A stretch of DNA of 64,000 bases from Gemmatimonadaceae bacterium (lineage in GTDB: Bacteria > Gemmatimonadota > Gemmatimonadetes > Gemmatimonadales > Gemmatimonadaceae). The notes under the pieces are model-generated. The model ran no database searches and had not been told where the DNA came from. It was given only the letters and a program-made list of their open reading frames with translations. The position numbers and the translations under genes were made by a program. Shown here piece by piece: positions 13,309-61,895 of this stretch (positions within the stretch are counted from its first letter, which is position 1; each line of letters starts with the position of its first letter). The DNA lies in assembly GCA_036504815.1 (NCBI GenBank), contig DASXUN010000015.1:62001-126000 (forward strand). The letters run 5' to 3'.

Positions 13309-13385
<77 letters not shown>

Positions 13386-14215: not shown

Positions 14216-14818
14216 ATGAGTTCTACTAATCAGCGTGAAGCAATTCTCTCGGCCGCGGCGCAGCTCTTCGCTCGTTTCGGCTACCGGAAGACGTCCATCG
14301 AGGACGTCGCGAAGCGTGTGCGTATTGGAAAGGGCACGATCTACCTCTACTTCGCGAGCAAGGAAGAGCTGTTCGGCGAAATCGCGCACCAGATCTGGGG
14401 AAACGTATTGCGCGAACTAACCGCAGCCGTGAAACGTGCCCGGACGCCGGAGGCGAAGCTCCGAGCGTACATGCGAGGTCGCGCCCATCAGCTGATCCGT
14501 GTGACCAAGGACTTGAAGGTCCAGCATGACCTCGCCCTTGAGTTGCAGGAGGCGGCCGCTCCTTATCTCAAGGAGCTTTGGGAAGCGGAGCGAGCGTTGC
14601 TCGAGGGCATCCTCGTCGAGGGGAACGCGTCCAACACCTTCGTTGTGCGACATCCTCACGCCCTGGCACTCGCCATGCAAACCGTGGTGCGTGGGCTGGA
14701 GCGGTCGATGATCGACCCGCAGAATGGCCCCGAGTTTCGCCGGGCCATCGACGATCTCCTGGACGTGTTGGTCCGCGGAATTACCTCGAGTGCAGGTCTG
14801 ATTCCCGACCGAGCATGA
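14216..14818 (+). CDS. TetR/AcrR-family transcription regulator
   Basis: This 200-residue regulator has an N-terminal TetR helix-turn-helix at about residues 10-55, with FGYRKTSIEDVAKRV and GKGTIYLYFASKEELF. The divergent C-terminal half would bind the inducer. It lies directly upstream of and on the same strand as the efflux genes, the usual place for a repressor of an RND pump. A perfect palindrome overlaps its own start region. Confidence 0.93.
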   Translation: MSSTNQREAILSAAAQLFARFGYRKTSIEDVAKRVRIGKGTIYLYFASKEELFGEIAHQIWGNVLRELTAAVKRARTPEAKLRAYMRGRAHQLIRVTKDLKVQHDLALELQEAAAPYLKELWEAERALLEGILVEGNASNTFVVRHPHALALAMQTVVRGLERSMIDPQNGPEFRRAIDDLLDVLVRGITSSAGLIPDRA

Positions 14819-14949
14819 GGTAAATCACAGGTAGGCGGCGCGAACTCAATATTGCGCCTGAGATTGACCAAAAAACCCGATAGGACCATTCAGTCACCAT
14901 GGTACCTACCCCCCCGCTACCACCCACCCGGGAAGCTGCACAAGGACGA

Positions 14950-16065
14950 ATGATGAAATCCAGAGAGGAAAAGACAGTGCCCGCATGCGTCGGCGACACG
15001 CGAATCCCCTGCCGGAGGCACTTGACCACTCGGTCGGTCTTTCTCGCCGTGGCCGTGGCCGGAGCGGCCGCCTGCCGCGGGGAGCAGTCCGCCGCACCGC
15101 CGCTGCCACTCGTGGAGTTGGCAACGGCGGTGGTTGACGGCTCAGGCGAAGATATTGTCCTGAGCGGTACCATCGAAGCCGAACGGACGACGCCGCTTGA
15201 TTTTGGCGTCATTGGAACCATCGAGGAGCTTGCGGTTCACGAAGGCCAGGTTGTCCAACGCGGTCAGGTGCTGGGACGGCTCAAGACGCGCGCATACGAG
15301 GATGCCCTCGCGATCGCCGTCGCTAAGGCGGATCAGGCTGAGGATGCGCTTCGGCGGCTGGAACCCATGCATCGCAATCGCACGATCGCCGACGTGAAGT
15401 GGGTCGAGGTCCAGACGGGGGTGCAGCAAGCCAGGCACGCTCGCTCACTGGCCCAGAAGAACCTGGATGACTGCGTCTTGCGCGCGCCGGTCGATGGCAC
15501 GGTCACCAGCCGGAGCGCGGAGCCCGGCATGACCACCATGCCTGGGCGACCGGTGCTCGTCCTTGTCTCCACTCGGGTCGTCCGTGCGACCGCGCCGGTG
15601 CCATCAGGGAAAGTCGCCCGCCTCCGGATGGGCCAGGTCGTCTCGGTCCTCGTGGATGCGGTCGGCACGGAGCGATCGGGGGAAATCGTCGAGATCGGAG
15701 TGGTCGCCGATCCGTTGACGAGGACCTACCCCGTGAAGGTACGCCTTCCCAACACTGATGGCGCCTTGCGCGTCGGCATGGTAGCCAAGCTCCGAGTGCG
15801 GATTGCGGGAGCCGCGAGCGCGGTGGTGGTTCCGCGTGAGGCAGTGCGGGTGGACGGCAGTGGAGAGCCCGTCGTCTACGTCGTTCGTGGGGACGTGGTT
15901 CGGTACCAGCCCGTCGAGGTCGCCGGTTACCGCGGCGAGTACATCGCCATCTCGCGGGGGCTCTTCGCTGGCGATCGCGTGGTCACGTCGGGCACGCCGA
16001 TGCTGGCGGACGGCATCAAGATTCGCGTGGCTGCCACGCCAGACAGTGGAGCGCGCGCCCGATGA
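14950..16065 (+). CDS. RND efflux periplasmic adaptor (membrane fusion protein)
   Basis: This 371-residue adaptor bridges the inner-membrane pump and the outer-membrane channel. It has an N-terminal membrane or lipoprotein signal (TTRSVFLAVAVAGAAACRG), a biotinyl-lipoyl-like half domain (TIEELAVHEGQVVQRGQVLG), a coiled hairpin, the second half (DCVLRAPVDGTVTSR), and beta-barrel and membrane-proximal domains. The ATG at 14950 follows AAGGA; an ATG at 14899 is less likely. Its stop overlaps the start of the pump gene (ATGA), so the two are coupled. Confidence 0.93.
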   Translation: MMKSREEKTVPACVGDTRIPCRRHLTTRSVFLAVAVAGAAACRGEQSAAPPLPLVELATAVVDGSGEDIVLSGTIEAERTTPLDFGVIGTIEELAVHEGQVVQRGQVLGRLKTRAYEDALAIAVAKADQAEDALRRLEPMHRNRTIADVKWVEVQTGVQQARHARSLAQKNLDDCVLRAPVDGTVTSRSAEPGMTTMPGRPVLVLVSTRVVRATAPVPSGKVARLRMGQVVSVLVDAVGTERSGEIVEIGVVADPLTRTYPVKVRLPNTDGALRVGMVAKLRVRIAGAASAVVVPREAVRVDGSGEPVVYVVRGDVVRYQPVEVAGYRGEYIAISRGLFAGDRVVTSGTPMLADGIKIRVAATPDSGARAR

Positions 16066-19000
16066 AGGCCCACAACCTCGTCGAGCGCGCCATGATCGAA
16101 TGGCGCATCGTAGTCACGCTCGTCGCCGGTCTGGCGATGTTCGGTACCATCTCGTTCCTGACCATGCCGCGGCAGGAGTTTCCCGAGTTCACCGTCCGAC
16201 AGGGACTCGTGGTGGGGATCATGCCGGGGGCCACCTCCGCCGAGGTCGAGGAACGCCTCGCCAAGCCGGTGGAGGCGTTCCTGTTCAGCTTCGCAGAGGT
16301 GAACAAGCTGAAGACGTACTCGCTGTCCAAGGAAGGGCAGCTCATCGTCTTTGTCGAACTGAATGACCGGGTGGCCGGGCTGGCTGCGGACGCTTTTTGG
16401 GCAAAGCTGCGCCTCGGCCTCACCGAACTGCGGGAGCAGAGCCTGCCGCCCCAGGTCGTGGCGCTCGTGGGTAACAACGACTTCGGAGACACGAGCGCGC
16501 TGCTGCTCACGCTGACCTCGGAGGGGCACAGCGCACGCGACCTGCAGACCCAGCTGGAGGTTGTCGAGGCGCAATTGCGTCGGCTTCCCGGAACCTCGAA
16601 GCTCCGCCGCTTCGGCATGCAGCGCGAGGTGATTCGCGTCACCCTTTCGAGCGAACGCCTTTCACACTACGGCGTGCGCCCAGCGACGGTCTGGCTGGCA
16701 CTACAGGGAACGGCGGGCCAGCCGGCGCCCGCCCGCCTCGACACCAAGACACTCGAACTGTCGGTGCATGTGGGCGCGGTGCTGCGATCCGAGGACAAGC
16801 TTGCACAGACCATCGTATTCTCGTCTCCAACAGGCTCGCACGTGCGACTGGCTGACGTCGCCAGCATTCGCCGCGAATACGGGCACGACGACGCGTTCGT
16901 CCGCTTTGATGGTAAACAGGCGGTGGTCTTGTCGGTCGAGATGCAAAAGGGGCACAACATCGCCACCTTCGGCCGGGAGGTAGACGAGGCGTTGACCGAG
17001 GCGCGCCGAGAGCTTCCGCCGACGGTCAGGATCGCCCGAGTGGTGGATCAGCCACAGGTCGTGGCGGTCGCAGTGGGCCACTTCCTGCGTGATTTTGGCC
17101 TGGCGATCATGGCGGTCATCGCCATGACCATGCTCCTCCTGCCGCTGCGCGTCGCGATGGTGGCGGCCGTCTCGATCCCGATCTCCATCCTGATCACCCT
17201 GGGCGTGCTCAATGCCCTCGGCGTGCAGTTGCAGACGGTGTCGTTGGCGGGCCTCATCGTCGTCCTCGGCATGGTGGTGGACAATGCGATCGTCATCATC
17301 GACGATCATGTCGAACGGCTCGACCATGGCGCCGACGTGTGGACCGCGGCGAGGGAAAGCGCGACCAGCCTGGCCGGCCCTGTCTTCAGTGCCACGTTGG
17401 CCATCATCATGGCGTACGTGCCGCTGGCGTGGTTTCTGAAGGGAATGGGTGGCGAGTTCGTCGGGAGCCTGCCCGTCACCATCGCCGTGGCACTCGGCGC
17501 CAGCCTGCTGGTCTCCGTCTTCCTCCTTCCCATTCTCAACCTCCGGTTCATTCGTCACGGGCTCCACCGGCCTGATGGAGATGAACGCGCAACCGTTCTG
17601 GATCGCCTGAGAGGGATCTACGGTCGGAGTCTCGAGCTGGCCTTCCGCCGGCCACGTCTCGCAATCGGGACCGGCGTTGCCTCGGTGCTCGCCGCGGCGT
17701 TGCTCGGCTTCTTCATGCCGCGGCAACTCTTCCCGAAGGTCGACCGCAACCAGTTCGCGGTCGAGATCTATCTGCCCAGTGGTCGTCCGCTGGCACAGAC
17801 GGATGACGTCGCCCGCCGCGTGGAACGGGAGTTGCTCCGAGACCCGCGCGTGACGCACGTCACGTCGTTTATCGGCACGAGTTCGCCGCGCTTCCATACC
17901 ACGTACATACCCAACATGCCGTCGCGGAATTTCGCCCAGCTCCTGGTGTGCACGGTGAGTGACGAAGCGACGGTCGAAGTTCTGCACGAATACGAACAAC
18001 GCCACCGGAATAGTTTCCCGGAAGGCTGGGTGCGCTGGAAGCAGCTCGACCTCCAGGCCACAAGTGCGCCGATCGAAGTCCGCCTCTCCGGCAGCGACAT
18101 TCCGCAGTTGCGGCAGCTGGCGCTGCGCCTCGAAACAGCAGCCCGCGCGATCCCCGGCGTCACGTGGATCCGCAACGACTTCGGCGAGCCGCGACAGGGA
18201 GTGAGCGTGCTGCCAGACGCGGACAACGCCGCGCGCCTCGGAGTGTCGTCCGCCAGCCTCCAGGCCTCGCTCATGGCAGGAAGCAGTCTCGGCCTGCCGA
18301 TCGCCACCCTCTGGGAGCACGCGGATCCGATACGGGTCATCCTCGGCGAGGATCCGCGCGAGTCCCAGACCATGCAGGGGTTCCGCCGGCAGTACGTTTC
18401 GTCGCTGCTGCTCGGCGCCGCCGTGCCCATCGAAGAGGTGGCTCACATTCGGCCGGATTGGAACGAGGAGGCGATCGTGCACCGCAACGGGGTGCGCACG
18501 CTGACCGTGCGTGTCGATGTCGGACCCGGGATCCTGGCGTCGGACGTCGAGCGCAAGCTGGACCGTGCCCTCAAGCTGATGGAGCCGACGCCCGGTATCC
18601 GGATCGGCTGGGGCGGCGAACGGGAGGGCACCGTGGAGAACTACACACCCATGTCAGTCTCAATGGCCGCGAGCGTGGCCATCATCTACCTGATCCTGCT
18701 CTTCGAGTTCGGACGGCATCGGCTGGTTCTGCTCGTGATGGTCACGATGCCACTCGCGCTGTTCGGCGCCGTACTTGGACTGATGCTCACGGGAAACGCC
18801 TTCGGATTCACGTCGTTTCTGGGCGTCATCGGCCTCATGGGCATCGTCGTCCGAAACGGAATCATCCTCGTGGGATTCGCCGAGGAGCTTCGCGCGCAGG
18901 GAATGTCTAGTCGGGACGCTGCCCTGGCCGCTGGTATGCGTCGTATGCGGCCCATCGTGCTGACGGCGGCAGCGGCCGCCGTCGGCGTGGTGCCGATGAT

Positions 19001-20519
19001 CCTGAGTGGTTCCACGCTCTGGGGTCCGCTCGGCGCCGTGACCTTCTTTGGCCTGATCTTCTCGACGCTCCTGACCTTGATCGTGCTGCCGGTTGCGTAC
19101 TGGTTGATGGCGCGGAGTGTCCCGATCCGGCATGCCTCGACCGCGGCCGCGAGCGGCGTCCTCTTGTTGGTGTCACTGTGCGCATTTCCCATCACGGCGG
19201 GGGCGCAATCGGGAACGCTGACGCTTGACCAGGTGCGACGTTTGGCCGCGCGAAATGCGCCCAAGGTTCGGCAGGCTTTGGAGGAAACGACGGCAGCCGT
19301 TCAGACACGTCGCGCTGCATTTACGAATTTCTTCCCTTCGGTGTCATCCGCCGCCGTGGCTGTGGCGGCGCGCACGCCGCTTGTTGACGTGAACATTCCT
19401 GGCGGCAACTTGCCCGTAAACGATGCCAGGGGTGCATCCACGGGGAACGTTACCGACTTCCCGGGAGTCAGCATGGCGCTGGCTGACCGTGTTCGCGTGC
19501 TCTCGTTGACCGCGGTGCAGCCACTCTACGTCGGCGGGCGAGTCGTCAATGGCAATCGACTGGCCGCGCTGGGCGTGGCGGTGGCCGATGACAAGGCCGC
19601 CCTCGCTCGACGCGACGCGGTCGCCCAGGCGGAGGAGAAATATTGGCGGCTGGTGACGCTGGGCCAGAAAGGCCAGACGCTGCGTGCTTACAAGGCGCTG
19701 CTCACTGATCTGGAACGGCAGGCGAGCGATGCCGTGGCGGCTGGACTGGTGACTTCCAACGACCTCCTCAAGGTGCGGCTGAAGCTGCAGGAAGCCGATG
19801 TCGATCGTTCGCGGCTGGAGAGCGGCCGCCGGTTGGCAACTCGCGATCTTCGATTGCACTTGGGATTGTCGGAGTCGGCGCCGACAGAGGTAACGGATAC
19901 CGTCCCGGAACCCGCGGCCGACGAAGCCTCGCTCGGCGATTCGGGATTGGACATACTGGTGCGACGCCCGGAGCTTCGATTGCTGGGACTGGCTGTTCGC
20001 GCGGAGGCGCTAAAGACTTCGATGGCGATCGGAAGCGCATTGCCTGCGGTCTCGGTGGGAGCGCAGTTGCTGCGCTACGATCTTGGCGGCCTCGGAACAC
20101 GCGGGGATGCGCTGGTCTTTGCCACCGTCAGCGTCCCGCTCAGCGGCGCGTGGAAGACGGCGCATGAGGTGCGTGGGCTTCAGGCGCGAGAGCGCATGGC
20201 CGCGCTGCAATTGTCCGAGGCTCGGGATCTCGTGGCGCTCGAGATTTCGAAGCGACACGACGACGTCATGTCCGCCTGGCTGGCCTCGCGGGTCGCGGAT
20301 CTCGGCGTGCGGCAGGCCACGGTGAACTTGAAGGAGGCATCCGACCGCTCGGCGGGAGGACTCGCTACGCTGTCCGACCTTCTTGAGGCGCAGGTCCTAC
20401 ACCGTCAGGCGCTGGACCGGCAGACCGACGCGCGGGTGGACTACTGGCTGGCTCGGTCTGCTTTCCTCCGCGCAATGGGGGCGGACGAGTTGCCTGCGGC
20501 GGAGGCGAGGGTGAGGTAA
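16062..20519 (+). CDS. RND efflux permease fused to TolC-like outer-membrane factor
   Basis: This 1485-residue protein joins two parts normally made separately. Residues 1 to about 1020 form a complete HAE-type RND proton-driven pump: a first transmembrane segment near the N-terminus, a periplasmic porter domain, the cluster with LAGLIVVLGMVVDNAIVIID, a second porter domain and a final cluster ending near LPVAYWLMARSV. Residues about 1025-1050 look like a signal peptide (ASGVLLLVSLCAFPITAGAQ), and residues 1050-1485 form an outer-membrane efflux protein (TLTLDQVRRLAARNAPKVR onward). An in-frame ATG at codon 1016 has no clear ribosome site. Cleavage after AGAQ would release the two parts. The substrate is unknown. 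Confidence 0.92.
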   Translation: MKAHNLVERAMIEWRIVVTLVAGLAMFGTISFLTMPRQEFPEFTVRQGLVVGIMPGATSAEVEERLAKPVEAFLFSFAEVNKLKTYSLSKEGQLIVFVELNDRVAGLAADAFWAKLRLGLTELREQSLPPQVVALVGNNDFGDTSALLLTLTSEGHSARDLQTQLEVVEAQLRRLPGTSKLRRFGMQREVIRVTLSSERLSHYGVRPATVWLALQGTAGQPAPARLDTKTLELSVHVGAVLRSEDKLAQTIVFSSPTGSHVRLADVASIRREYGHDDAFVRFDGKQAVVLSVEMQKGHNIATFGREVDEALTEARRELPPTVRIARVVDQPQVVAVAVGHFLRDFGLAIMAVIAMTMLLLPLRVAMVAAVSIPISILITLGVLNALGVQLQTVSLAGLIVVLGMVVDNAIVIIDDHVERLDHGADVWTAARESATSLAGPVFSATLAIIMAYVPLAWFLKGMGGEFVGSLPVTIAVALGASLLVSVFLLPILNLRFIRHGLHRPDGDERATVLDRLRGIYGRSLELAFRRPRLAIGTGVASVLAAALLGFFMPRQLFPKVDRNQFAVEIYLPSGRPLAQTDDVARRVERELLRDPRVTHVTSFIGTSSPRFHTTYIPNMPSRNFAQLLVCTVSDEATVEVLHEYEQRHRNSFPEGWVRWKQLDLQATSAPIEVRLSGSDIPQLRQLALRLETAARAIPGVTWIRNDFGEPRQGVSVLPDADNAARLGVSSASLQASLMAGSSLGLPIATLWEHADPIRVILGEDPRESQTMQGFRRQYVSSLLLGAAVPIEEVAHIRPDWNEEAIVHRNGVRTLTVRVDVGPGILASDVERKLDRALKLMEPTPGIRIGWGGEREGTVENYTPMSVSMAASVAIIYLILLFEFGRHRLVLLVMVTMPLALFGAVLGLMLTGNAFGFTSFLGVIGLMGIVVRNGIILVGFAEELRAQGMSSRDAALAAGMRRMRPIVLTAAAAAVGVVPMILSGSTLWGPLGAVTFFGLIFSTLLTLIVLPVAYWLMARSVPIRHASTAAASGVLLLVSLCAFPITAGAQSGTLTLDQVRRLAARNAPKVRQALEETTAAVQTRRAAFTNFFPSVSSAAVAVAARTPLVDVNIPGGNLPVNDARGASTGNVTDFPGVSMALADRVRVLSLTAVQPLYVGGRVVNGNRLAALGVAVADDKAALARRDAVAQAEEKYWRLVTLGQKGQTLRAYKALLTDLERQASDAVAAGLVTSNDLLKVRLKLQEADVDRSRLESGRRLATRDLRLHLGLSESAPTEVTDTVPEPAADEASLGDSGLDILVRRPELRLLGLAVRAEALKTSMAIGSALPAVSVGAQLLRYDLGGLGTRGDALVFATVSVPLSGAWKTAHEVRGLQARERMAALQLSEARDLVALEISKRHDDVMSAWLASRVADLGVRQATVNLKEASDRSAGGLATLSDLLEAQVLHRQALDRQTDARVDYWLARSAFLRAMGADELPAAEARVR

Positions 20520-20589: not shown

Positions 20590-21294
20590 ATGCAAGACCA
20601 AACAGGCAACACGACGGGCGACGGCAACGATACCGTCGAGTTCGAAGCTGAAGTGAGCAGCGCTGTCGGAGCGGGTGATGATGTGCAGGAATTGGTGAAG
20701 CGGCTCACCTTGCGCGCGATCAGCGCGCATTCGCTCGATAGCGCCTCCCTTGGGCTGATCATTCGTGCCGTGCTGCGCGGCGCGCGGGCGGGTGCGCAAC
20801 AGGAGTTGCACCAGTCCGCCGCACAGATCGAAATCACGCGAGGACGTCTCACCCAGGCAGTCGCCGGGCTGGACGCGGCGTTGGCGCAGTTCGTCGCAGC
20901 GTCGACACTGGCGCTGAAAGAGGCAGCAGGCCGGGCTCGGCAATTTTCCCATGAGGATCTGACCCGCGCCTATACTGACTTGGGAGCCCTGGAGGCGCTG
21001 TTCCTGGACAGCCTGCAACGCTCGGCATCGAGTGGCAAGGATGTGGCGGAGGAAATTCTCGCCGACCTTGCAGCGCACGCGCGCATCCATGGTTCTGCCG
21101 TCGGAGCGCAGTTGAAGGAAGCCTTGGTCGTAGTCGGGAAGCAGGGCTACGAGGCGGGACGGACGCAGGCAGGGGCGGGTCTGCATCTGGCAGAAGCTAC
21201 TTCCGACCTGTTGCGCCAAATCACTGCCGGCGTGCTCAGCGGACTGGCCGATCGCGTCAAGCCCTCCCACCGGCCTGCGAGCGAGAGCGACTGA
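20590..21294 (+). CDS. DUF6781-like protein, accessory to UbiB-type kinase
   Basis: This 234-residue, alanine-rich and mostly helical protein has no transmembrane segment or signal peptide. It resembles the DUF6781 group, found next to UbiB-family genes. A GGAGA site precedes the ATG. Its stop overlaps the UbiB start (TGATG), so the two are translationally coupled and probably act together. The function is unknown. The family assignment comes from general resemblance and context. Confidence 0.65.
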   Translation: MQDQTGNTTGDGNDTVEFEAEVSSAVGAGDDVQELVKRLTLRAISAHSLDSASLGLIIRAVLRGARAGAQQELHQSAAQIEITRGRLTQAVAGLDAALAQFVAASTLALKEAAGRARQFSHEDLTRAYTDLGALEALFLDSLQRSASSGKDVAEEILADLAAHARIHGSAVGAQLKEALVVVGKQGYEAGRTQAGAGLHLAEATSDLLRQITAGVLSGLADRVKPSHRPASESD

Positions 21295-23054
21295 TGTTCT
21301 GGCAGGCGCTGACGGCGGCACGCGATCTTGGACGACTGCGCGAGATCGCCTCGATTCTGATTCGCTACGGGTTCGGCGACATGGTACGCCGGATGGGACT
21401 CGCCAATGCGCTGGAACGAGCCGGTCAGTCATTACGGTTGAGCAGTTCGTCGGATAGCGCGCACATGCTCCCGCCTGCACGGGCGCGGCGGGCGCTCGAG
21501 GAGATGGGACCGGCCTTCGTCAAGCTCGGGCAAGTGCTCGCTACCCGTGTGGATCTGTTTGAACCCGAGTGGATCGCCGAATTCAGCAAGCTGCAGGACA
21601 GTGCCCCCAGCGCTCCGTACGCCGAGATACGTCAGCAGCTCTCCGATGACCTGGGCGCGCCGCCCGAGGAGATCTTCGTCGCCTTCGATCCCCAGCCGCT
21701 AGCCGCCGCCTCCATCGCGCAGGTGCATCGCGCGCGGCTTGCCGACGGCAGTGAGGTCGTGGTCAAGGTGCGTCGGCCGGGCATCCGGCCGATCATTGAG
21801 GCCGACCTGCGCTGGCTCTCAAGACTGGCGGAACTGGCCGAGACGGGAAGCCCGGAACTGCGCCGCTACCGTCCGCGAGAAGTGGTGCGTCAGTTCACCG
21901 AATCGCTGCTGCGCGAGCTTGATTTCGGCGTCGAATGTCGCAATGCCGAGCGCATCGCTACGAATTTTGCGGAGTATTCCGACGCTGACTCCCCGCGCGA
22001 TGTGCCCACCGGCAGTGCCATCGCTGACACCCCAGTCGAACCACACCCAGCGACTGCGCCCATCGTCATCCCCCGCGTCTACTGGCCATGGACGGGGGAG
22101 CGCGTGTGTGTGCAGGAATTCATCGACGGCATTCCCGGACGCAATCTGGCCGCAGCTGAGGCTGCGGGCCTCGACCGCCAGATACTTGCCCGGCGTGGTG
22201 CGCACGCGGTGTTGAAGATGATGATCGAGGACGGCTTCTTCCATGCCGACCCGCATCCCGGCAACATCTTCTATCTGCCCGGCAGCCGTATCGCCTTTAT
22301 CGACTTCGGCATGATTGGGCGGCTTACGGAGCAACGCCGCGGTCAGCTGATTCGCCTGCTGCTGGGACTGGTGCAGCAGGAACCCGCACGCGTCGTCGAG
22401 GTGTTGCTCGACTGGACCGGCGACGGCGAGGTCAACGAGGACGATCTGACGTTGGAAATCCAGGTCTTCGTCGATCAATACCACGGCGTGCCGTTGAAGC
22501 GGCTCAAGATCGGCACCATGCTCGCCGACCTCGTTGCGATCCTCCGACAGCACCGGCTAGCGCTGCCACCGGACTTGGCGCTCCTGGTCAAGGCGTTCGT
22601 CACACTCGAGGGCATGGGGCGCGAGCTTGATCCGGACTTCGACCTGGTCGGCGAAGCCATGCCTCTGCTGGAACAGGCGATGCGCGCCCGCTATTCCCCG
22701 GCCGCCCTCATCAAGCGCGGCTGGTGGAGCGCGAGCGAGGCGCTCTCGCTGATGGACGGTCTGCCCCAGGATCTTTCCCGGCTACTCCGTGCCGCGCGGC
22801 GCGGTCGGCTCGAAGTTCACGTTGATGTCACGCACTTGAAACGCGTCGGCAATCAACTCGATCGCGCCGCCAGTCGGCTGGTGGTCGGCATCGTCGTTGC
22901 GGCGCTCATCATCGGTTCCTCCATCGTCATGACGGTGCCCGGAGGCCCCAAGATGCTGGGCCTGCCTTCGTTCGGCCTGCTGGGGTTCCTCGGCGCGGTG
23001 GTCGGCGGCATATGGCTTTTGACCTCCATCTGGCGCAGCGGGGGGAGGGAATGA
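21294..23054 (+). CDS. UbiB/ABC1/AarF-family atypical kinase
   Basis: This 586-residue protein belongs to the ABC1 atypical kinases, which support quinone and lipid metabolism as ATPases at the membrane. It has the KxGQ motif (AFVKLGQVLATR), the alanine-rich loop (AAASIAQVHRARL), the invariant lysine in VVVKVRRPG, the catalytic FHADPHPGN, and FIDFGMIG for metal binding. Two C-terminal membrane segments follow (LVVGIVVAALIIGSSIV and the segment after it). Within the island it lies between the DUF6781-like gene and a glycolipid transferase gene, which points to membrane lipid remodelling rather than the core ubiquinone pathway. Confidence 0.93.
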   Translation: MFWQALTAARDLGRLREIASILIRYGFGDMVRRMGLANALERAGQSLRLSSSSDSAHMLPPARARRALEEMGPAFVKLGQVLATRVDLFEPEWIAEFSKLQDSAPSAPYAEIRQQLSDDLGAPPEEIFVAFDPQPLAAASIAQVHRARLADGSEVVVKVRRPGIRPIIEADLRWLSRLAELAETGSPELRRYRPREVVRQFTESLLRELDFGVECRNAERIATNFAEYSDADSPRDVPTGSAIADTPVEPHPATAPIVIPRVYWPWTGERVCVQEFIDGIPGRNLAAAEAAGLDRQILARRGAHAVLKMMIEDGFFHADPHPGNIFYLPGSRIAFIDFGMIGRLTEQRRGQLIRLLLGLVQQEPARVVEVLLDWTGDGEVNEDDLTLEIQVFVDQYHGVPLKRLKIGTMLADLVAILRQHRLALPPDLALLVKAFVTLEGMGRELDPDFDLVGEAMPLLEQAMRARYSPAALIKRGWWSASEALSLMDGLPQDLSRLLRAARRGRLEVHVDVTHLKRVGNQLDRAASRLVVGIVVAALIIGSSIVMTVPGGPKMLGLPSFGLLGFLGAVVGGIWLLTSIWRSGGRE

Positions 23055-23124
23055 TCGCGCCAAACGCGAATCTCCAAACGATCGGCCGATTCTGGTCGGT
23101 CAGCACTTGACCAGCTGGGTACCG

Positions 23125-25719
23125 ATGCATGCGCTGTCCGTTTCCGGCGCAGTCGTGGCGTGCATACTCGTGACCGTCACCGCCATCGTCGTCTTTGCCA
23201 TTGCCGTGTGGAGGCGACGGGGCCGGACTCGGTGCCAGGGGACATGCGCGTCACCGACGCGCGATATTCGATCGCCTCGGTCCACGAAGATCATCGTCTT
23301 CTATTCTTCCATCGGCTACGGACACATCAGCGCCGCGCACGCCATCCAGGAAGAGATCGAGAGGCAGTCCCCGGCCGCCGAGGTGGCCCTGCAGGACATC
23401 CGTGCGTTCATGCATCCGCTGTGGCGCCGAGTCGACGAGAGGTTGTACTGGTTCGTTGCCAACCACCTCCCGGAAAGTTTCGAGAGTCTCTTTCGCTCGA
23501 TGCAAGCGCGCGGCAACCGCACCGCCTTGCTCGCCCTGCTGCCCAACGACTATCCGGAAGACAAAGTGTTCGCGTATCTGGCGTTGCAGGCGCCGGATGC
23601 GGTGCTTGCTACGCATTACGGGGCGGCGCAGGTGCTCGGCACGCTGCGGCAGCGGGGGCTGCTGCCGAAACTGAGGATCGGCTGGCTGCATACGGACTTC
23701 TTTGAGGGGTACTTTCCGCGCATCTCACAGCGGATCGACCGCACCTTTCTCGCCCACGCCGAGCTCGAATCGCGCTGGCTGGCTGCCGGCGTGCCGCGCG
23801 ACCGGATTGTCACCAGCGGCATGCCGGTGCGCATTCCGGCGGACGAACCCGGGGCTCGACAGCTCACGCTCGAGCGGTTCGGTTTGAACCCGGACATTCC
23901 CACGCTGTTGCTCACCGGCGGTCGGGAGGGCGCGGGTGACTATCGCGAAGTGGTGCAGAGCGTCGTCCGCCATTGCCAGCGTTACGTGCAGATCATCGCC
24001 GTCTGCGGGACAAACGCCAGACAGCAGGCCTTGCTTGCAGACTTGCAGGAACACTTATCGCCGCGGGTGGCGCTGAGGGTGCTGGGGCTCCTTCCCCAGC
24101 ACGAAATGGTATCGTGCATGCGCGCCGCCGACCTGCTGATCACCAAGGCCGGCGGCATGACCTTGGCTGAAGCATTCGCCATGGGCACACCGACGATTCT
24201 CCTCGACGTGGTGAGCGGGCACGAACGGGAAAACGCCGCGCTTTTTGTCCGGCTGGGTTTGGCCGAGCTTGCGGCGGACACGTCGTTGGTGGGCGAGCTG
24301 GTGGCGGATTTCCTCGCGAATCCGCAGATCAGGGAGGGCATGCTCAATGCCCAGCGTGAGTTCCGCGACGATGCCCATATCGCCAGCATCGCGCAATTCG
24401 CACTCGACGCATCGTTCACTCCGGCCGACCCGTCCGCCGATTTTGGGATGGAAGACGGCTTGCCTGCCCTCGATATCGATCAGGTCCTGGCGCAGCTCGA
24501 CGTCGACGCTCCGGCCGAGGTCGAACTGCTGCTCTCGTACTCGACCTCTCAGTCGCCGCAGCGCATCGTGCGCGAGAACCCGTTCGGGCATGTGGCCATC
24601 CGTGTCGGCGACACCGTGTATAGCGCCAACCACGTCGCCGACCGCTCCATCGACGCGAAACTCCTGCAGCACCTGAGCCTCGCGGATTACCTCTATGGCG
24701 TTCGGCGTCCGTCGGGCTCGCAGGTGCATGTCAGTACCTACGGTGTGGCGTATGGCCGGGAAACGCTCGCGCTCAGGGTGGCGGATATCCCGGCAGATTG
24801 CACGGCGGCCATGGCTGCCGAAGCGACCCGCATCGAGGAACGGTTCCGGGATGGCTCCGTCCAGTGGGACAGGCGCGAGTTCAACTGTGCGCACGTCGTC
24901 GCGCGGATCCTTGAGGCTGGCGGCTATGGTGTCCACTCGCTGTTTGACCGGCTGGCACTGCCTGCCATGCCGCTGGACCTCTTCGAGCGAGCGCGAGCGC
25001 GGTTCGAGGAAGACGTGTCCTTGCGGGTGGATCTCGTGGCGTACCGACTGGTGCCCGGATCGCGGGCCAGCTATCGGTTCTCCCGGTTTCCACTCTCGCT
25101 CGGGCAACCCTTGCGCTCCATGGCGCGGGTGTTGAGCGAAGCGCCTCGCGATCCGCTCGAAGAAGCGGTGACCAGACAGATCACCGCGTATCTCGGCGAC
25201 CGCCGGCTCGTGGTCGAGGACTTGCGTGCGCGCGGGTCGACCTCCGGACTCGACGATCCGTTCGTCCTTGACCGACCAGACCGAAACTTGGAAAGAGCCC
25301 TTTTGGCAGACCTGCGGCGCCTACTGGCAACCTACGCACGACTGCCGGCCGGAACGATCGGGTGTTTCAGTGATCGCTACTCCGCGCATGAACTCCGCCG
25401 TCTCATCAATCGCGGCCAGGAAATCGCCCGGCTGTTTACCGAGCACGCCGAGGAGAGCCTCCTTTCCCCCCCCGCGCGCCGCCTGCGAACGCTCTTCAAC
25501 CAACTCGTGAGCGAATACGGACGGATCGACGCACGATGGCTGCAAGCGGATCAGGTTGAGGCTTACATGCAGCGGCTGCAAGCCTTCGAGTCCGCAGGTA
25601 GACTAGAATTCTCCCGACTTGGCGCATCGCGAATCAGGCGAGCCTGGACAACATGGCGCTGGCTGCACCGCCGCATGCAGCGCCGGTTCCGCCGCTTACC
25701 AAGTTGGCCGGCCGCTTAG
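23125..25719 (+). CDS. Fusion of MGDG-synthase-like glycosyltransferase and papain-like (LRAT/YiiX-type) domain
   Basis: This is a protein of about 864 residues. It has an N-terminal membrane segment (about 5-27), then a glycosyltransferase of the diacylglycerol glycosyltransferase/MurG type with IVFYSSIGYGHISAAHA and the sugar-nucleotide site LLITKAGGMTLAEAFAMG (to about 415). Residues about 450-610 form a permuted papain-like fold, with the histidine in NPFGHVAIRVG and the cysteine in EFNCAHVVARIL. A helical C-terminal domain of about 230 residues ends it. It probably transfers sugar to a lipid and perhaps hydrolyses or acylates one. TTG at 23107 is an alternative start. Confidence 0.8.
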   Translation: MHALSVSGAVVACILVTVTAIVVFAIAVWRRRGRTRCQGTCASPTRDIRSPRSTKIIVFYSSIGYGHISAAHAIQEEIERQSPAAEVALQDIRAFMHPLWRRVDERLYWFVANHLPESFESLFRSMQARGNRTALLALLPNDYPEDKVFAYLALQAPDAVLATHYGAAQVLGTLRQRGLLPKLRIGWLHTDFFEGYFPRISQRIDRTFLAHAELESRWLAAGVPRDRIVTSGMPVRIPADEPGARQLTLERFGLNPDIPTLLLTGGREGAGDYREVVQSVVRHCQRYVQIIAVCGTNARQQALLADLQEHLSPRVALRVLGLLPQHEMVSCMRAADLLITKAGGMTLAEAFAMGTPTILLDVVSGHERENAALFVRLGLAELAADTSLVGELVADFLANPQIREGMLNAQREFRDDAHIASIAQFALDASFTPADPSADFGMEDGLPALDIDQVLAQLDVDAPAEVELLLSYSTSQSPQRIVRENPFGHVAIRVGDTVYSANHVADRSIDAKLLQHLSLADYLYGVRRPSGSQVHVSTYGVAYGRETLALRVADIPADCTAAMAAEATRIEERFRDGSVQWDRREFNCAHVVARILEAGGYGVHSLFDRLALPAMPLDLFERARARFEEDVSLRVDLVAYRLVPGSRASYRFSRFPLSLGQPLRSMARVLSEAPRDPLEEAVTRQITAYLGDRRLVVEDLRARGSTSGLDDPFVLDRPDRNLERALLADLRRLLATYARLPAGTIGCFSDRYSAHELRRLINRGQEIARLFTEHAEESLLSPPARRLRTLFNQLVSEYGRIDARWLQADQVEAYMQRLQAFESAGRLEFSRLGASRIRRAWTTWRWLHRRMQRRFRRLPSWPAA

Positions 25720-27547: not shown

Positions 27548-27725
27548 CGTTCACTCCTCAGTGCCGCAATGACGAAGAGGCGCTCCGGAAGCAGTCGCTC
27601 GGCCGTGCTACCGCCAATGGGTTGCATCGAGCTCGACTTGCACCTCGGCATAGAGTCTCTTGGTCGTTTTCCAGTTCATTCCACCTCTGATTCGTTCGTC
27701 ATTGGCGTCCGCAAAACCGGTTCTC

Positions 27726-28403
27726 ATGTTCCTGCCGAAACCCGTGGCCGAGTTCCTGGCGCGGCGTTTGATCGGTGCGCGTCTCATCGCGACGATCCGC
27801 GTCGTGGGCTCATGCGTGGCTGGCGCGCTGTTCGCCGCTGGAACCATCCGCCTTGCGGCGTGGCTGCTCGGGGCTTCGGCGGTCCTTGGCCTGATCGGTC
27901 GCCTGTTGGCGCGCAGCATCAATCCAACGCAGACGGACAGCGGTGTACCCGGCACTGCGATGGTTCACGGCACTGCGATGGACAGCATCGCCGATGGCTT
28001 CCTGTTCGGAGGCCTGACGTTCTTCTTTGCCGCCGATGCATGGCACCGCTATCTGCCCATGGTTGCGGTCGGTCTTGCGGGATTGCTTGCGACGCTGATA
28101 TCGACGTACGCGGGAGCTCGCGCCGAGTTTGTCGGAGTTTCCATGGAAGAAATCGGCGTCCTGGAGCGTCCGGCTCGCTTGCTCCTGTTGGCACTGCCGC
28201 AGGCATTCTTCGGGCTGGCGTTCGACGGGCTGCTGCTTCGCTTCGTCTTCGTGCTGTTCGCGGCCGCAGCTATTGCGAGGTCCGTCAGGCAACTTGCGCA
28301 CGACTACCTGGCCGCGCAGGGGCTGGCGCCGTCCTCCGCCCACACCGTGGACTACGCTTTGCTCGGGCCAGCCCTGTTCTCGCCTCCCGACACCACCAAG
28401 TGA
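27726..28403 (+). CDS. CDP-alcohol phosphatidyltransferase-like membrane protein
   Basis: This integral membrane protein of about 225 residues resembles enzymes that join CDP-diacylglycerol to an alcohol such as inositol phosphate. The second half of the signature is present (GTAMDSIAD, fitting GxxxDxxxD at residues 82-90), as are a later TYAGARAEFVG and LERPARLLLLAL, as in phosphatidylinositol-phosphate synthases. The first half of the signature (DxxDGxxAR) is degenerate: glycines stand where the two metal-binding aspartates are expected, before LLAR. Activity is therefore uncertain. It lies four bases before inositol-3-phosphate synthase, which supports an inositol-lipid role. Confidence 0.7.
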   Translation: MFLPKPVAEFLARRLIGARLIATIRVVGSCVAGALFAAGTIRLAAWLLGASAVLGLIGRLLARSINPTQTDSGVPGTAMVHGTAMDSIADGFLFGGLTFFFAADAWHRYLPMVAVGLAGLLATLISTYAGARAEFVGVSMEEIGVLERPARLLLLALPQAFFGLAFDGLLLRFVFVLFAAAAIARSVRQLAHDYLAAQGLAPSSAHTVDYALLGPALFSPPDTTK

Positions 28404-28407
28404 ACCA

Positions 28408-29727
28408 ATGAGCCAGCCGCCCAAAAAGGCCATTCGCAGCGCCCAAGGGAAGCTGGGCATTCTCACGCCCGGATTGGGCGCTGTCGCCACCACTTTCATC
28501 GCCGGTGTCGAGAGCGTGCGTCGAGGGCTCTCAAAGCCCATCGGGTCGCTGACCCAGATGTCCACGATTCGGCTTGGCAAGCGGACCGAGCATCGGGCGC
28601 CCTTAATTCGCGATTTCGCGCCGCTCGCCAGCCTCGAGGACCTCGTGTTCGGCGCGTGGGATCCGATTCCCGATGACGCGTACACCTCGGCAAAGAAGGC
28701 CGGCGTGCTCGAGGGCAGGCACCTCGAGCCGCTGAAGGATTTCCTACAGGCGATCACGCCGATAACGGCGGTCTTCGATCAGCACTATGTCACGCGCATC
28801 CACGGCACGCACGTCAAGACCGGCAAGACCAAGCGCGACCTCGCCGAGCAGATCCGGCAGGATATCCGCAACTTTCGCGTGGCCAATGGCTGCGACCGGC
28901 TCGTGGCCGTCTGGTGCGGCTCGACCGAGATCTACATCGCCCCGTCGGCGGTGCATGCCAGCATCGAGGCCTTTGAGGCCGGGATGGATGAGAACGCTCC
29001 CGAGATTGCCCCGTCGATGCTGTATGCGTGGGCCTGCATCATGGAGCACGTCCCGTACAACAACGGGGCGCCGAACCTTGCCGTCGACACGCCAGCGCTG
29101 TTGGCCCTCGCCCAGCGCGAGGGTGTGCCGGTCTCCGGCAAGGACTTCAAGACCGGCCAGACGTGGATGAAGACGGTCATCGCCCCTGCGATCAAGGCGC
29201 GCATGCTCGGCCTTGAGGGCTGGTATTCCACCAACATCCTCGGCAATCGCGACGGTGAGGTGCTCGACGACCCCGCGTCCTTCAAGACGAAGGAGGCCTC
29301 GAAGCTCAGCGTGCTGCACACCATCCTGCAACCGGAGCTGTACCCCGACTTGTACGAGGGCTTCTCGCACGTTGTGCGCATCAACTACTACCCGCCGCGC
29401 GGCGACAACAAGGAAGGCTGGGACAACATCGACATCGTCGGATGGATGGGCTATCCGATGCAGATCAAGGTGAACTTCCTCTGCCGTGACTCGATTCTCG
29501 CGGCGCCCATTGTGCTCGACCTCGCGTTGTTCAGCGACCTGGCCTCGCGTGCCGGGATGAATGGGATCCAGGAATGGCTGAGTTTCTATTACAAGTCACC
29601 CATGGCTGCCGCAGGACTTCTCCCCGAGCACGATCTTTTCATTCAGCAGACGAAGCTCAAGAACACGCTCCGCCACCTGATGGGGGAGGAGCAGATCACC
29701 CATCTTGGGTTGGAGTACTATCCATAA
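28408..29727 (+). CDS. ino1: Inositol-3-phosphate synthase
   Basis: This 439-residue NAD-dependent enzyme converts glucose 6-phosphate to inositol 3-phosphate, the first step of inositol lipid synthesis. Diagnostic stretches include GILTPGLGAVATTFIAGV (NAD binding), AVWCGSTEIYI, FKTGQTWMKTVIAPAIK and LGNRDGEVLDDP. The gene starts four bases after the stop of the phosphatidyltransferase-like gene, so the two are an operon. Inositol phospholipids are uncommon in bacteria, and their genes on a mobile island are notable. Confidence 0.95.
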   Translation: MSQPPKKAIRSAQGKLGILTPGLGAVATTFIAGVESVRRGLSKPIGSLTQMSTIRLGKRTEHRAPLIRDFAPLASLEDLVFGAWDPIPDDAYTSAKKAGVLEGRHLEPLKDFLQAITPITAVFDQHYVTRIHGTHVKTGKTKRDLAEQIRQDIRNFRVANGCDRLVAVWCGSTEIYIAPSAVHASIEAFEAGMDENAPEIAPSMLYAWACIMEHVPYNNGAPNLAVDTPALLALAQREGVPVSGKDFKTGQTWMKTVIAPAIKARMLGLEGWYSTNILGNRDGEVLDDPASFKTKEASKLSVLHTILQPELYPDLYEGFSHVVRINYYPPRGDNKEGWDNIDIVGWMGYPMQIKVNFLCRDSILAAPIVLDLALFSDLASRAGMNGIQEWLSFYYKSPMAAAGLLPEHDLFIQQTKLKNTLRHLMGEEQITHLGLEYYP

Positions 29728-40078: not shown

Positions 40079-41188
40079 ATGAGTCAGAAGCCGCGAACCC
40101 TTCGATGGGCTCTCGATGAGCATTCGCACGCGAAGCACGCCGTCCTTCGAGAGTACCTGAAGGCGTGGCTGCCGATATCGGCCTTTTCGGAGGATTCGTT
40201 CCTCTTTGTGGACGGCTTCGCGGGCCCTGGTCGCTACTCGACCGGAGAGGAAGGCTCACCCATCATCGCCTTGCGTGCTTATCTGGAGCATAGGGCACGG
40301 CCGCACTTCACCGGCACTCCGTACTTCGCCTTTATCGAGGGTGACTGCGATCGGGCTGCCGCGCTGGAAGCGGAGGTGAAGCATACGCTCGACGGCGTGG
40401 CCTCTCCTCCGCCGTACGACGTGGAACACGGCACATTCCACGAGGTGCTGGCCTCGCTGCGCGATCACCTCACGGAGCGCCGGCTGCACCTGAAGCCGGC
40501 GTTTGTCATGGTTGATCCGTTCGGCATCGCGGACACGCCGATGTCGGATTTGGTTTGGCTGATATCGAATCCCAAATGCGAACTGTACGTGTCGTTGATG
40601 GCATCGTTCATCACACGCTTCGAAGGAACGGAGAGCTTCGAGCAAGCACTCGACGCGCTCTACGGCACCCACGCCTGGCACGACTTCACCGATCTGCCGC
40701 ACCCGGAGAAGCGAGTGGCGCTGCTGAACCTGTATGAGCGGCAGTTGCGCACGGCGAGGCCGGGTCTGCTGGTCCTGCGCTTTGATCTTTACGACGGCAA
40801 CGTCTACAAGTACACCATCTTTCACGCGTCGCGGCACGAACGGGCGTGCGAACGCATGAAGCAGGCGATCTGGACGCTGGACCCGAGCGGGCGTTTCCAG
40901 TTTCGTGGACGCGGGGATGTGGATCAGCTCAGCCTGTTCGGACCGCGGCCGTGGAGTGAGGCGCTGTGCCGAGAGTTGCTCGAACGGATCCCGCCCTCCC
41001 CTGCGTGGACGATGGTGGCGGAGCTCGAGATCTACCTGCGATCAGATCGCACCCGCTTCCACCCGGGGCAACTGAAGACTGCCCTCAAAGACCTGGAGCG
41101 CGATGGCCAAATCGTGGCCGACCCTTCGACGCGCCGCCGACACGGTGAGTTTCCATCCCGCACGAGGGTACAGCGCGCGTCGCCCTAG
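40079..41188 (+). CDS. tcmP: Three-Cys-motif partner protein TcmP
   Basis: This 369-residue protein matches TcmP, named for its constant pairing with a three-cysteine protein. Recognisable stretches are WALDEHSHAKHAVLREYL, LFVDGFAGPGRY and FVMVDPFGIADTPMSDL, which suggest a Rossmann-like, methyltransferase-related fold. GGGAGG precedes the ATG. The gene converges on its DUF5131 partner, and the two stop codons overlap within CTAG at 41185-41188. The pair is common on mobile and defence islands; its reaction is not known to me. Confidence 0.88.
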   Translation: MSQKPRTLRWALDEHSHAKHAVLREYLKAWLPISAFSEDSFLFVDGFAGPGRYSTGEEGSPIIALRAYLEHRARPHFTGTPYFAFIEGDCDRAAALEAEVKHTLDGVASPPPYDVEHGTFHEVLASLRDHLTERRLHLKPAFVMVDPFGIADTPMSDLVWLISNPKCELYVSLMASFITRFEGTESFEQALDALYGTHAWHDFTDLPHPEKRVALLNLYERQLRTARPGLLVLRFDLYDGNVYKYTIFHASRHERACERMKQAIWTLDPSGRFQFRGRGDVDQLSLFGPRPWSEALCRELLERIPPSPAWTMVAELEIYLRSDRTRFHPGQLKTALKDLERDGQIVADPSTRRRHGEFPSRTRVQRASP

Positions 41189-41931
41189 ATGACCGCGCGT
41201 TCACGCGGGTATTCGTCCCACGTGCGGCCATCGAGTTCACGGCCACCGGCCTTCGGGGTAAAACCGCCCCATTGCTTCCAGAAGAAGCGGATCCTCCGTC
41301 GGCGACACAACGCGCGCAACCCACGCGCCCATCGGATGTCGACCGGGCGATACCCTGGTCCGCTCTCCCCGCCGCCGATGATCCAGTCGATCCCGCTGAC
41401 GTCGAGGTCATCGAGCGGTCCGAGCAGCGGCTCCGCGGAGATGAACCGCACCGCGGCAGGGATCGCGCGCAACGCGTTGGCGCGGTGCGCCACGTCCATG
41501 TTCTCAATCGACGTCCCCATCCAGATATTCGGGCTCCAGTTCAGCCGGTCGGCAAGGCGCACCGCGCGCTCCGGTCGCTTCGTCAGGAGTTGGAACTGAT
41601 GCTGGCCACACTCGTTCATCACCGCGAAGACCCGCTGGATGTGCTCCAGGGAGAAGTGCGCGTGAAAGACGTCGCTCATCGAGTTGACGAAGACGCGACG
41701 GGGCTCCTTCCACTTCCGCGGCAGTTCGAGGCGATCGATCCAGAAGCGTGGAGCGAACGGATCGTCGCGATTCGCGGAGGACTCCCGCACGGGCGGCTGC
41801 TGTAGGTAGAGCTGCCGTGTGCGTCGATAGGCCACGACCTGCGCGTAACAGTGATCGCAACCAGCGGAGATCTTCGTGCACCCCGTCATCGGGTTCCACG
41901 TTTCGTCGGTCCACTCGATCTTGGTCGGCAT
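41185..41931 (-). CDS. Phage Gp37/Gp68-like (DUF5131) three-Cys protein
   Basis: This 248-residue protein opens TKIEWTDETWNPMTGCTKIS, followed by AGCDHCYA, so its N-terminus carries the three cysteines (CX6CX2C) of a radical-SAM-like iron-sulphur site. It continues with RVFVNSMSDVFH and FQLLTKRPERAV, as in phage Gp37/Gp68 proteins. It is the usual partner of TcmP, encoded convergently. The ATG at 41929-41931 fits the family start; the longer open frame upstream does not. Confidence 0.9.
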   Translation of the reverse strand: MPTKIEWTDETWNPMTGCTKISAGCDHCYAQVVAYRRTRQLYLQQPPVRESSANRDDPFAPRFWIDRLELPRKWKEPRRVFVNSMSDVFHAHFSLEHIQRVFAVMNECGQHQFQLLTKRPERAVRLADRLNWSPNIWMGTSIENMDVAHRANALRAIPAAVRFISAEPLLGPLDDLDVSGIDWIIGGGESGPGYRPVDIRWARGLRALCRRRRIRFFWKQWGGFTPKAGGRELDGRTWDEYPRERAVI

Positions 41932-42290
41932 CGAGCGCTCCGGCTCAGGGTGATAGTGCCAAGAATGGCGGCACGGCTCGACCGCCGCAACCGCAACGCG
42001 GACCGGAGTTCGAAGGTCGACGAGTCGATGACCATGATGTATCGACTGCTGGGCCATATCGAGCGACCCATCGGGAAGGTTGCGCCGACGAGCGGTTGCA
42101 CCGCGCAGCGCGAGACCGACACGCGCTCGCAGCGTGTGCCCGTGCGCTGACGCACCTCGTCGACGACCTGGAACAGGTCCCGAGTGCCACGGCCTACGAG
42201 ACAACGCGGGTTCCCTGCGGGATGCCGTGTCCGCCGCTCGCGAAGCTACCACGACCCTCTGCGTGTGCTGTACCACCGCGACTGCCAGCG
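41932..42290. other. Gap between DUF5131 and E1 genes
   Basis: I see no gene. The stretch follows the E1 gene's stop and precedes the DUF5131 gene on the same strand, so it should hold a terminator or a promoter; neither is obvious. Confidence 0.45.
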
Positions 42291-43694
42291 CTAACCCCAG
42301 AGTGACCGATTCACCTGCCGCATGCTGGCGCTGCCGCAGAACACGCAGTTTGCGTCTGCCAATCGTCGCCGACGGCGAGACGCGAGAGGCGGCCGCCAGG
42401 CGCTGACGCTCCAGTAGTTGTCGCTTCTAGGAGGGCCACTCGTCAAGCGCCGCGCCAGCTCCAGGGCGAGCAATGTGCCGGCGAGCGCACTGATGAAGGC
42501 GAAGGGCGCCAACACGCGTTCGTCCGCCGTCGCCGCCAGCGCTCCCGAGGCGCACAACTGCTTGAACAGCGTGTCGTAGGCCGCCCCCTCGATATCGGCG
42601 ATGACAAGGTGCGGGTGACGTTTCGCAATCCGAGCGGCGGCCCGCGAACTGATGCGTGATTCTCGAACATCCGTCACTGTGACATCGAGATGATCCGCGA
42701 TATGTTGTTCAAGCGAATACTCCGCTTCGTCGGCGCGGTAGATACACGCCAAGCAGGCGGCCGTCGTCGGTTGGCGGTGATGATGGATGACCACTTCGTG
42801 AATGCCGGTGGTCGAGGCGTCGAACACCTCGCCTGGACACTCATTCTGCAGCTCGCGTCGCGCGCGACGACTATCAACCGCGACGATGAGACGAGGTAAC
42901 CATGCGCCATTCGTCTTCATTGGGAGGTTCTGGAGCCGCGCCCTGTAGCCCCGAAGCGTCAATTGCGCGAAGTCCGCGCGCGCCTTCTCGGCGAGACACA
43001 GAGCCTTCGCTTGGCCGATATTGGGCGGATTGAAATAGAGCTGTCGATTCAGGTTACCTGACGCCACGACATCGTCGTCCGCGATGACCAAGTCTCCGGA
43101 CACCGGGAGATGCCGAAGCGCCCAGAGAAATCCGTTTCCGATGGCGCCCGCGCCTGCCAGATACGCGGTCCCCACATCAAACGGGGTGGTAAGTTGCACA
43201 TCGTCGAGCCCTACCACGGCGAACGACAGACGAAACGGCAGGCGCAGCGGCACCGGACCCGATTGCGGCATGGTTTGGGGCAGAAGCGCGCGGATGGCGG
43301 CCGCAGCGATGTAACACGCCGCGAGCGCCACGTAGGGTCGCGACACGGGAACGTCGAGAGCCGCGGGGAGCTTCGCGTCGTCGATCGTGAGGCCCGCACG
43401 ATCGAGGACCGCGAATCGGCGTGGTGCCGTGCTCCTCGGTGTGGTCGCTCCCACAACGACCTCAAGCTCCGGCACGAAGCCCTCAGACGTCATGCTGACG
43501 TGGGTCACGGAACGCGCCAATAACTCGATCACGTCCTGCGCGAGGGCGAAGGCGGTCGCGTCGCTCGCTGGAGCGCTGACCAGCACATGGCGGTCCAGCG
43601 TGCGCTCAGCCTCATCGACGCTGAGTCCGGCGGCGCGGGCGAGCGTGCGAGCATTCTCTGATCGGGCCTCCTGCGTCAGGAGAGATCCAGGCAT
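42291..43694 (-). CDS. E1-like (ThiF family) adenylyltransferase of a ubiquitin-like system
   Basis: This 467-residue protein would adenylate the C-terminal glycine of the small Ubl protein. The ATP site is AGAGAIGNGFLWALR (181-186 core), with LVIADDDVVASGNLNRQLYF carrying the acidic and N/R/Q residues typical of E1 enzymes. Two CxxC pairs (CLAC near 314-317 and CVFC near the C-terminus) probably bind zinc. The N-terminal 150 residues are an extra domain I do not recognise. GGGAGG precedes the ATG, which overlaps the JAB gene by 19 bases. Confidence 0.9.
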   Translation of the reverse strand: MPGSLLTQEARSENARTLARAAGLSVDEAERTLDRHVLVSAPASDATAFALAQDVIELLARSVTHVSMTSEGFVPELEVVVGATTPRSTAPRRFAVLDRAGLTIDDAKLPAALDVPVSRPYVALAACYIAAAAIRALLPQTMPQSGPVPLRLPFRLSFAVVGLDDVQLTTPFDVGTAYLAGAGAIGNGFLWALRHLPVSGDLVIADDDVVASGNLNRQLYFNPPNIGQAKALCLAEKARADFAQLTLRGYRARLQNLPMKTNGAWLPRLIVAVDSRRARRELQNECPGEVFDASTTGIHEVVIHHHRQPTTAACLACIYRADEAEYSLEQHIADHLDVTVTDVRESRISSRAAARIAKRHPHLVIADIEGAAYDTLFKQLCASGALAATADERVLAPFAFISALAGTLLALELARRLTSGPPRSDNYWSVSAWRPPLASRRRRRLADANCVFCGSASMRQVNRSLWG

Positions 43695-52977: not shown

Positions 52978-53018
<41 letters not shown>

Positions 53019-59860: not shown

Positions 59861-59861
59861 G

Positions 59862-60518: not shown

Positions 60519-60562
60519 TCTGCCTCCATTCAAAGGGATCGAACCACAAGAAGAGAGCGCCG

Positions 60563-61756: not shown

Positions 61757-61895
61757 CCCCAGATTGTCTCCGAACGCTTGTGCCGATGACAGAGGGAACG
61801 GCATGCGTTCGGCACACTCTGATACCGCTCAAATAGAAAAGACCAGCGACGACGTCGCTGGTCTGGGTGGGTGCCCATGTTTCCCTGTGGATCGG

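Follow-up and report, generated by a model that had tools for sequence, protein, structure and literature searches.

A predicted MGD1-like glycosyltransferase fused to a permuted papain-like domain in a mobile operon, and its possible role in glycolipid synthesis and acylation

What a protein that joins a glycolipid-type glycosyltransferase (GT) to a papain-like domain in one chain might do is the question raised by a gene at positions 23125-25719, on the forward strand, of a 64,000-nucleotide stretch from a Gemmatimonadaceae bacterium (contig DASXUN010000015.1; this whole stretch is hereafter the window). From the ATG at 23125, which agrees with the alignment of a relative (L006), the gene encodes 864 residues; the open frame containing it spans 23107-25719 (+), and an alternative TTG start is possible at 23107. 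An earlier reading made from the letters alone (the sequence-only reading) had seen here an MGDG-synthase-like GT, a papain-like domain and a third, C-terminal domain in one protein, and had named structure prediction as a check. Both the fusion and the three-part layout were borne out by the single frame, the Pfam, PDB profile and fold matches and the permuted topology, and the prediction returned an MGD1 fold for the GT, a permuted papain-like topology and a helical C-terminus. Along the forward strand, a membrane helix predicted by model and hydropathy (residues 9-35, 23149..23229) and an Arg-rich stretch are followed by the GT-B domain (residues 53-432, 23281..24420), the papain-like domain (residues ~465-645, 24517..25059) and a C-terminal part (~646-864) that consists mostly of long helices in the model (residues 718-856, 25276..25692, with an Arg-rich end) and is poorly conserved (13/210 columns invariant). 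RefSeq labels the whole protein LPS N-acetylglucosamine transferase, so half of the fusion is invisible in the current annotation, and a literature search judged by titles and abstract openings found no description of it. The GT family and the fold class were already known; the papain-like part is taken as a new family, and its combination with the GT is new.

The GT half matched both Pfam families MGDG_synth (48.4 bits, cut-off 25) and Glyco_tran_28_C (53.9 bits, cut-off 22), and a family profile searched against the PDB found a processive diacylglycerol glucosyltransferase at 1.8e-32 and MGD1 at 1.7e-29. Supportively, the predicted fold matched Arabidopsis MGD1 with a Z of 30.7 over 322 residues (rmsd 3.2, 24% identity). 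The NCBIfam equivalog for diglucosyl diacylglycerol synthase (NF010135) reached 133.8 bits, below its cut-off of 500. The MGDG-synthase-like assignment was therefore right in view of the Pfam scores, PDB profile matches and MGD1 fold, and homology makes it highly probable that this half is a glycosyltransferase acting on a lipid. The fusion GT has both Pfam halves and the MGD1 fold in common with the MGD1/UgtP-type diacylglycerol glycosyltransferases; unlike them, it carries the papain-like domain and the helical C-terminus in addition.

For the papain-like half, an alignment of 29 sequences was used, which contains two identical pairs (L010/L011 and L016/L017) and leaves out L028, split in two frames; in the sequence set L021 is partial. 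His489 (24589..24591), Asn502 (24628..24630) and Cys588 (24886..24888) are invariant in 29/29, as are Asn587 and Ala589. Cys588 is the proposed nucleophile, His489 the proposed catalytic base, and Asn502, 13 residues after the His, a candidate third catalytic residue; the Cys that the sequence-only reading had placed at about residue 585 is residue 588. In the model (mean pLDDT 71.7), a strand begins with His489, more strands and a long helix come after it, and Cys588 opens the helix that follows; this order, with the His first, is that of the circularly permuted NlpC/P60 enzymes (PPNEs). As in PPNEs, the His precedes the Cys in the sequence, the Cys in the model comes after the sheet and begins a helix, and the sequence holds a Cys/His dyad with a polar third residue within 12-15 residues after the His. 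The PPNE signature tyrosine, reported seven residues before the Cys in LRAT (Tyr154/Cys161) and PPPDE1 (Tyr101/Cys108), is Trp in 28/29 members and Tyr in one, at a position assigned from spacing alone, a spacing that differs in other PPNEs.

No Pfam family matched the papain-like half in 25/25 members at E up to 0.01, and the weaker rows (E > 0.01) were a few single-member chance matches; searched against the sequences of the PDB, the C-terminal half drew chance-like rows only, and Foldseek with the same half returned helical-bundle rows, none under E 0.5. In a second-look structure list, where almost every other row falls on the helical bundle of the C-terminus, the papain-like row spanning the domain was TseH (6v98), with a Z of 9.2 over 152 residues (rmsd 4.2) at rank 42, which is below the tool's safe Z. 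Because the helical bundle occupies these lists, the absence of LRAT and YiiX from them is no evidence either way. With moderate confidence, the domain is placed in the permuted NlpC/P60 group as a family of its own, and the description as permuted papain-like is supported by the residue order, the model topology, the invariant His, Asn and Cys and the middling TseH match.

The sequence-only reading had gone further and called the domain LRAT/YiiX type, of which the permuted class held and the specific type proved too narrow. Neither LRAT (PF04970) nor Peptidase_C92 (PF05708) matched any of 25 members in Pfam at E up to 1, and the same was true of Lnb_N (PF13387, DUF4105). In profile-profile comparison, which covered Lnb_N and C92 and excluded LRAT (its matches being short, weak and partly canonical-looking), C92 gave a P of 0.1, and the best though weak match was Lnb_N: P was 0.0081 for the whole set, 0.0026 for its FGH type and 0.027 for its second type, a split into types that was made after the first profile result was known; one Lnb_N-type protein (L043) was left out for a stop codon. 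The FGH-type comparison scored 26.65, above 200/200 column-shuffled profiles (maximum 23.5) and the reversed profile (13.65), and it paired the His and Cys motifs in register, at an hhalign probability of only 11%. Lnb_N-type proteins are themselves common in the window's phylum (63/101 sampled genomes, its own included), where they (L033-L062) fall into two types by His motif. On these modest statistics, the domain comes closest to permuted NlpC/P60 lipid enzymes among known proteins, to TseH by fold and to Lnb_N by profile. In the profile alignment, the FGH and NC motifs of the Lnb/DUF4105 lipoprotein N-acyltransferases lie in register and at similar spacing in the fusion domain; unlike them, it has no Lnb_N Pfam match, is fused to a GT and is apparently cytoplasmic. 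TseH and Tox-Act1, permuted NlpC/P60 phospholipases of which the first provides the fold match, are described as secreted T6SS effectors (PMC12994826), whereas the fusion lies in a lipid-related operon and shows no secretion signals. With LRAT/HRASLS and the YaeF/YiiX (C92) proteins the domain has in common the His-first, Cys-second order and a polar residue that follows the His, by 13 positions here and by 15 in the YiiX and BcPPNE numbering; unlike them, it lacks their Pfam match in all 25 members and has Trp for Tyr in 28/29.

Whether the fusion is more than an accident was addressed by its distribution. A genome scan with the C-terminal half as query, over 84,980 species with one genome apiece and relying on two conserved 8-residue patterns (which would pass over distant or unfused relatives), found 27 genome loci. 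The GT was present in 27/27 and the whole fusion lies in one frame in 25/27, the remaining two being truncated by a contig end (L021) and split over two frames (L028). Two conjugative Polaromonas plasmids also carry the fusion, annotated only as LPS GlcNAc transferase. Besides the window genome, carriers belong to Pseudomonadota, Myxococcota, Thermodesulfobacteriota, Acidobacteriota and Elusimicrobiota, many of the non-proteobacterial ones being metagenome-assembled genomes. Nearer to the window, the full protein was found in its own genome only among 288 of its order, and the C-terminal half in its own genome only among 395 of its phylum; a second weak match to that half among 99 family genomes (E 7.9e-4), which spans query residues 236-349 and so lies mostly outside the papain-like core, was treated as chance. 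Viral contigs yielded nothing. An enrichment among hydrocarbon degraders, an idea that came from names such as Zoogloea oleivorans, Aromatoleum toluolicum and Hydrogenophaga aromaticivorans, is not claimed: PF02332 occurred in 7/28 carrier genomes and in 26/150 control genomes (Fisher P 0.43; 0.29 with the shared genome removed from the control), the control being a single carrier's family and a poor fit for the other phyla.

The selection estimates indicated that both enzymatic parts are held. The dN/dS of the GT was 0.12-0.35 in 12/12 pairs and that of the papain-like part 0.10-0.54 in 10/12 (undefined in the other two), and the C-terminal part was looser (0.13-1.29). GT and papain-like parts are both under purifying selection, and the papain-like part is constrained to the same degree as the GT (52/181 against 106/380 invariant columns). 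This selection on the two enzymatic parts, together with the persistence of the fusion across several phyla, shows it to be more than chance. These results bear on the idea that the papain-like part is a dead domain which binds a lipid or a partner and regulates the GT, to which the Trp at the signature Tyr position would lend itself; the invariance of His, Asn and Cys in 29/29 and a constraint equal to that of the GT make it very unlikely. An active, lipid-directed thiol enzyme is the probable nature of this domain.

The side of the membrane on which this enzyme would act was assessed by hydropathy, with start codons chosen by the analyst, in the 28 members with a readable N-terminus. A single N-terminal helix followed by arginines was found in 11/28 and no hydrophobic N-terminal segment in 17/28, and because of these two counts the papain-like domain appears to lie on the cytoplasmic side. 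Hydropathy gave no sign that the domain is sent to the periplasm or the cell surface, as secreted NlpC/P60 wall peptidases are. A periplasmic wall peptidase of that kind had been named beforehand as the case that would speak against the sequence-only reading, and it is disfavoured by the members without a hydrophobic N-terminus and by the fusion to a UDP-sugar-type GT. That the domain is a secreted standard NlpC/P60 wall peptidase joined to the GT by chance or assembly error is also hard to square with the permuted order, the cytoplasmic side and a one-frame fusion that recurs across several phyla; the papain-like fold class is all that the two have in common, and this explanation is extremely improbable.

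The genes around the cytoplasmic fusion enzyme were then considered. On the forward strand of the window, it is preceded by genes for a TetR-type regulator (14216..14818), a HlyD-type adaptor (14899..16065), an RND efflux permease and a TolC-type outer membrane factor in one frame (16062..20519), a DUF6781 protein assigned by Pfam (20590..21294) and, just upstream, a UbiB/ABC1-type kinase (21294..23054). Over 29 loci (the 27 genome loci and the two plasmids, counting matches of at least 80 bits, with some flanks short), the UbiB kinase and the RND permease each occurred in 20, the HlyD adaptor in 19, TetR in 16, a patatin in 15, a polyprenyl-synthase-like gene in 12, TolC in 11, and DUF883, DUF6781 and a repeat protein in 9 each. 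In four of the 20 UbiB loci (L010, L011, L023, L025) no more than a fragment of the kinase stands beside an intact fusion. We propose that the operon is a mobile one for envelope lipids, with TetR, RND efflux, a UbiB-type kinase and often a patatin lipase, and that the fusion gene is the part of it that persists. A VTT/DedA gene directly follows the fusion in two deltaproteobacterial loci, and one of these proteins resembles an undecaprenyl-phosphate transporter in NCBIfam, below cut-off.

Several further observations concern these neighbours. The RND permease and TolC factor form a single 1485-residue frame in the window, and on the Polaromonas plasmids they are encoded by two genes that overlap; the single frame may reflect either a natural fusion or a sequencing error. 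The repeat protein, of 195 residues, has by eye the look of an exported protein of amphipathic helices. The polyprenyl-synthetase-like protein (L004:18463-19269) seems by eye to carry neither of the two Asp-rich motifs; it is possibly a lipid-binding pseudo-enzyme, and since the motifs seem missing the gene cannot be used as support for an isoprenoid substrate. Downstream of the operon in two loci (L004:26476-28734, L029:15199-17460) lies a gene for a ferredoxin-reductase-fatty acid desaturase-type fusion (AlkB-like), and likewise a GMC oxidoreductase gene. In the window, a phosphatidylinositol-phosphate-synthase-like gene adjoins one for myo-inositol-phosphate synthase (27660-29727), hinting at inositol lipids in this bacterium; as partners of the fusion these genes were rejected as local, as no 80-bit match was found in the flanks of the 29 related loci.

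Location and neighbourhood also bear on whether the halves are fused merely for co-localisation, the GT making a glycolipid and the thiol domain acting on a protein as a protease or in acylation. Lnb and LnsA are reported to acylate lipoproteins, and the permuted PPPDE enzymes to target protein conjugates (PMC10318531), so that a protein substrate has precedent; lipoprotein acylation, however, takes place outside, whereas the fusion domain appears cytoplasmic, and no lipoprotein gene is constant across the 29 loci. We consider a protein substrate improbable, and a lipid remains the favoured target.

The operon itself is mobile. The loci of Zoogloea dura and Aromatoleum tolulyticum (L016, L017) are identical over 21,224 bases, which reflects either recent transfer or a contaminated assembly or sample mix-up, and the Pseudomonas and Halomonas loci have 92% identity over 21 kb; the sequences indicate that the fusion gene has moved between classes and lineages. 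In the window, the operon lies between the 3' end of a tRNA-Pro (13354..13383, +), a putative left attachment repeat, and an exact 30-base copy of it about 40 kb away (52987..53016, +), a putative right one. Third-position GC drops after ~13.4 kb, and a resolvase/integrase-like gene is found inside the region; neither end has a clear integrase gene next to it. The region 13354-53016 is likely an integrated island of ~40 kb that holds the operon. The putative island also contains a DUF5131 gene adjoining a ThiF gene with an E1-N domain (41185-43727), and beyond the putative right repeat lie genes for a TrwB/TraG-like coupling protein and HerA-like proteins (56771-61804). One of the two Polaromonas plasmids, pPNAP01, bears a Tn4371-like element (PMC2789088), and in the relevant passages of that survey the roles of the element's pump and metabolism genes were left unassigned.

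The best reading of the fusion is a glycolipid synthase of the cytoplasmic face with a built-in thiol enzyme for acyl chains. In a first step, well supported by homology, the GT-B domain would take the hexose of a UDP-sugar and attach it to a hydroxyl group of a lipid, in all likelihood diacylglycerol or one similar to it. Cys588, His489 and Asn502 would then likely lift an acyl chain from a phospholipid or glycolipid as a thioester and, as we infer, this chain would be passed to the glycolipid just made, with the outcome that one polypeptide sets both head group and acylation. The thiol half should handle acyl chains, because members of the permuted group (LRAT, Lnb, LnsA, YiiX and Tox-Act1) are reported to be tied to lipids or acyl groups (PMC12994826, PMC10318531, PMC3142127, PMC7387801, PMC12419801), and acyl handling is likely in view of the invariant triad, the permuted topology, the TseH fold and the Lnb_N profile. 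The patatin and VTT/DedA neighbours support the lipid reading, and the UbiB fragments beside a whole fusion support the explanation as a whole. Against it weigh the low hhalign probability, the empty Foldseek result, the rank of TseH, the Trp at the Tyr position and the pLDDT of the model, and also that the most conserved neighbours, the RND pump and the UbiB kinase, give no pointer to acylation themselves.

What the thiol half does with the acyl chain has a second answer, namely that it is a phospholipase which releases acyl chains to water, supplying or trimming the lipid of the GT or editing membrane lipids under stress. Its fold match, TseH, showed phospholipase activity, and Tox-Act1 cleaves PG and PE (PMC12994826); on the other hand, hydrolysis and transfer cannot be separated by sequence alone, a patatin lipase is already present in the operon at about half of the loci, and the profile match, Lnb, is an acyltransferase according to the same source. 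We hold hydrolysis to be unlikely, with a weight that is still appreciable. That both halves act on the same lipid with acyl transfer, the reading that we prefer, falls somewhat short of an even chance. The claim in full, that this is the first single-chain enzyme to glycosylate a membrane lipid and also, by way of an LRAT/Lnb-like thioester, to shift an acyl chain on that lipid, that it founds a new permuted-papain family, and that integrative and conjugative elements have spread it, with a UbiB-type kinase and an RND exporter, as a module for envelope remodelling, is put forward tentatively, as a proposition that we would sooner doubt than assert.

If it is true, two lipid chemistries would be joined in one polypeptide, and the fusion would hint at a bacterial glycolipid that nobody has yet sought. 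The permuted NlpC/P60 lipid enzymes would gain a cytoplasmic branch, and a role would be at hand for accessory genes of a mobile element whose function the earlier survey, in the passages concerned, had left unassigned (PMC2789088).
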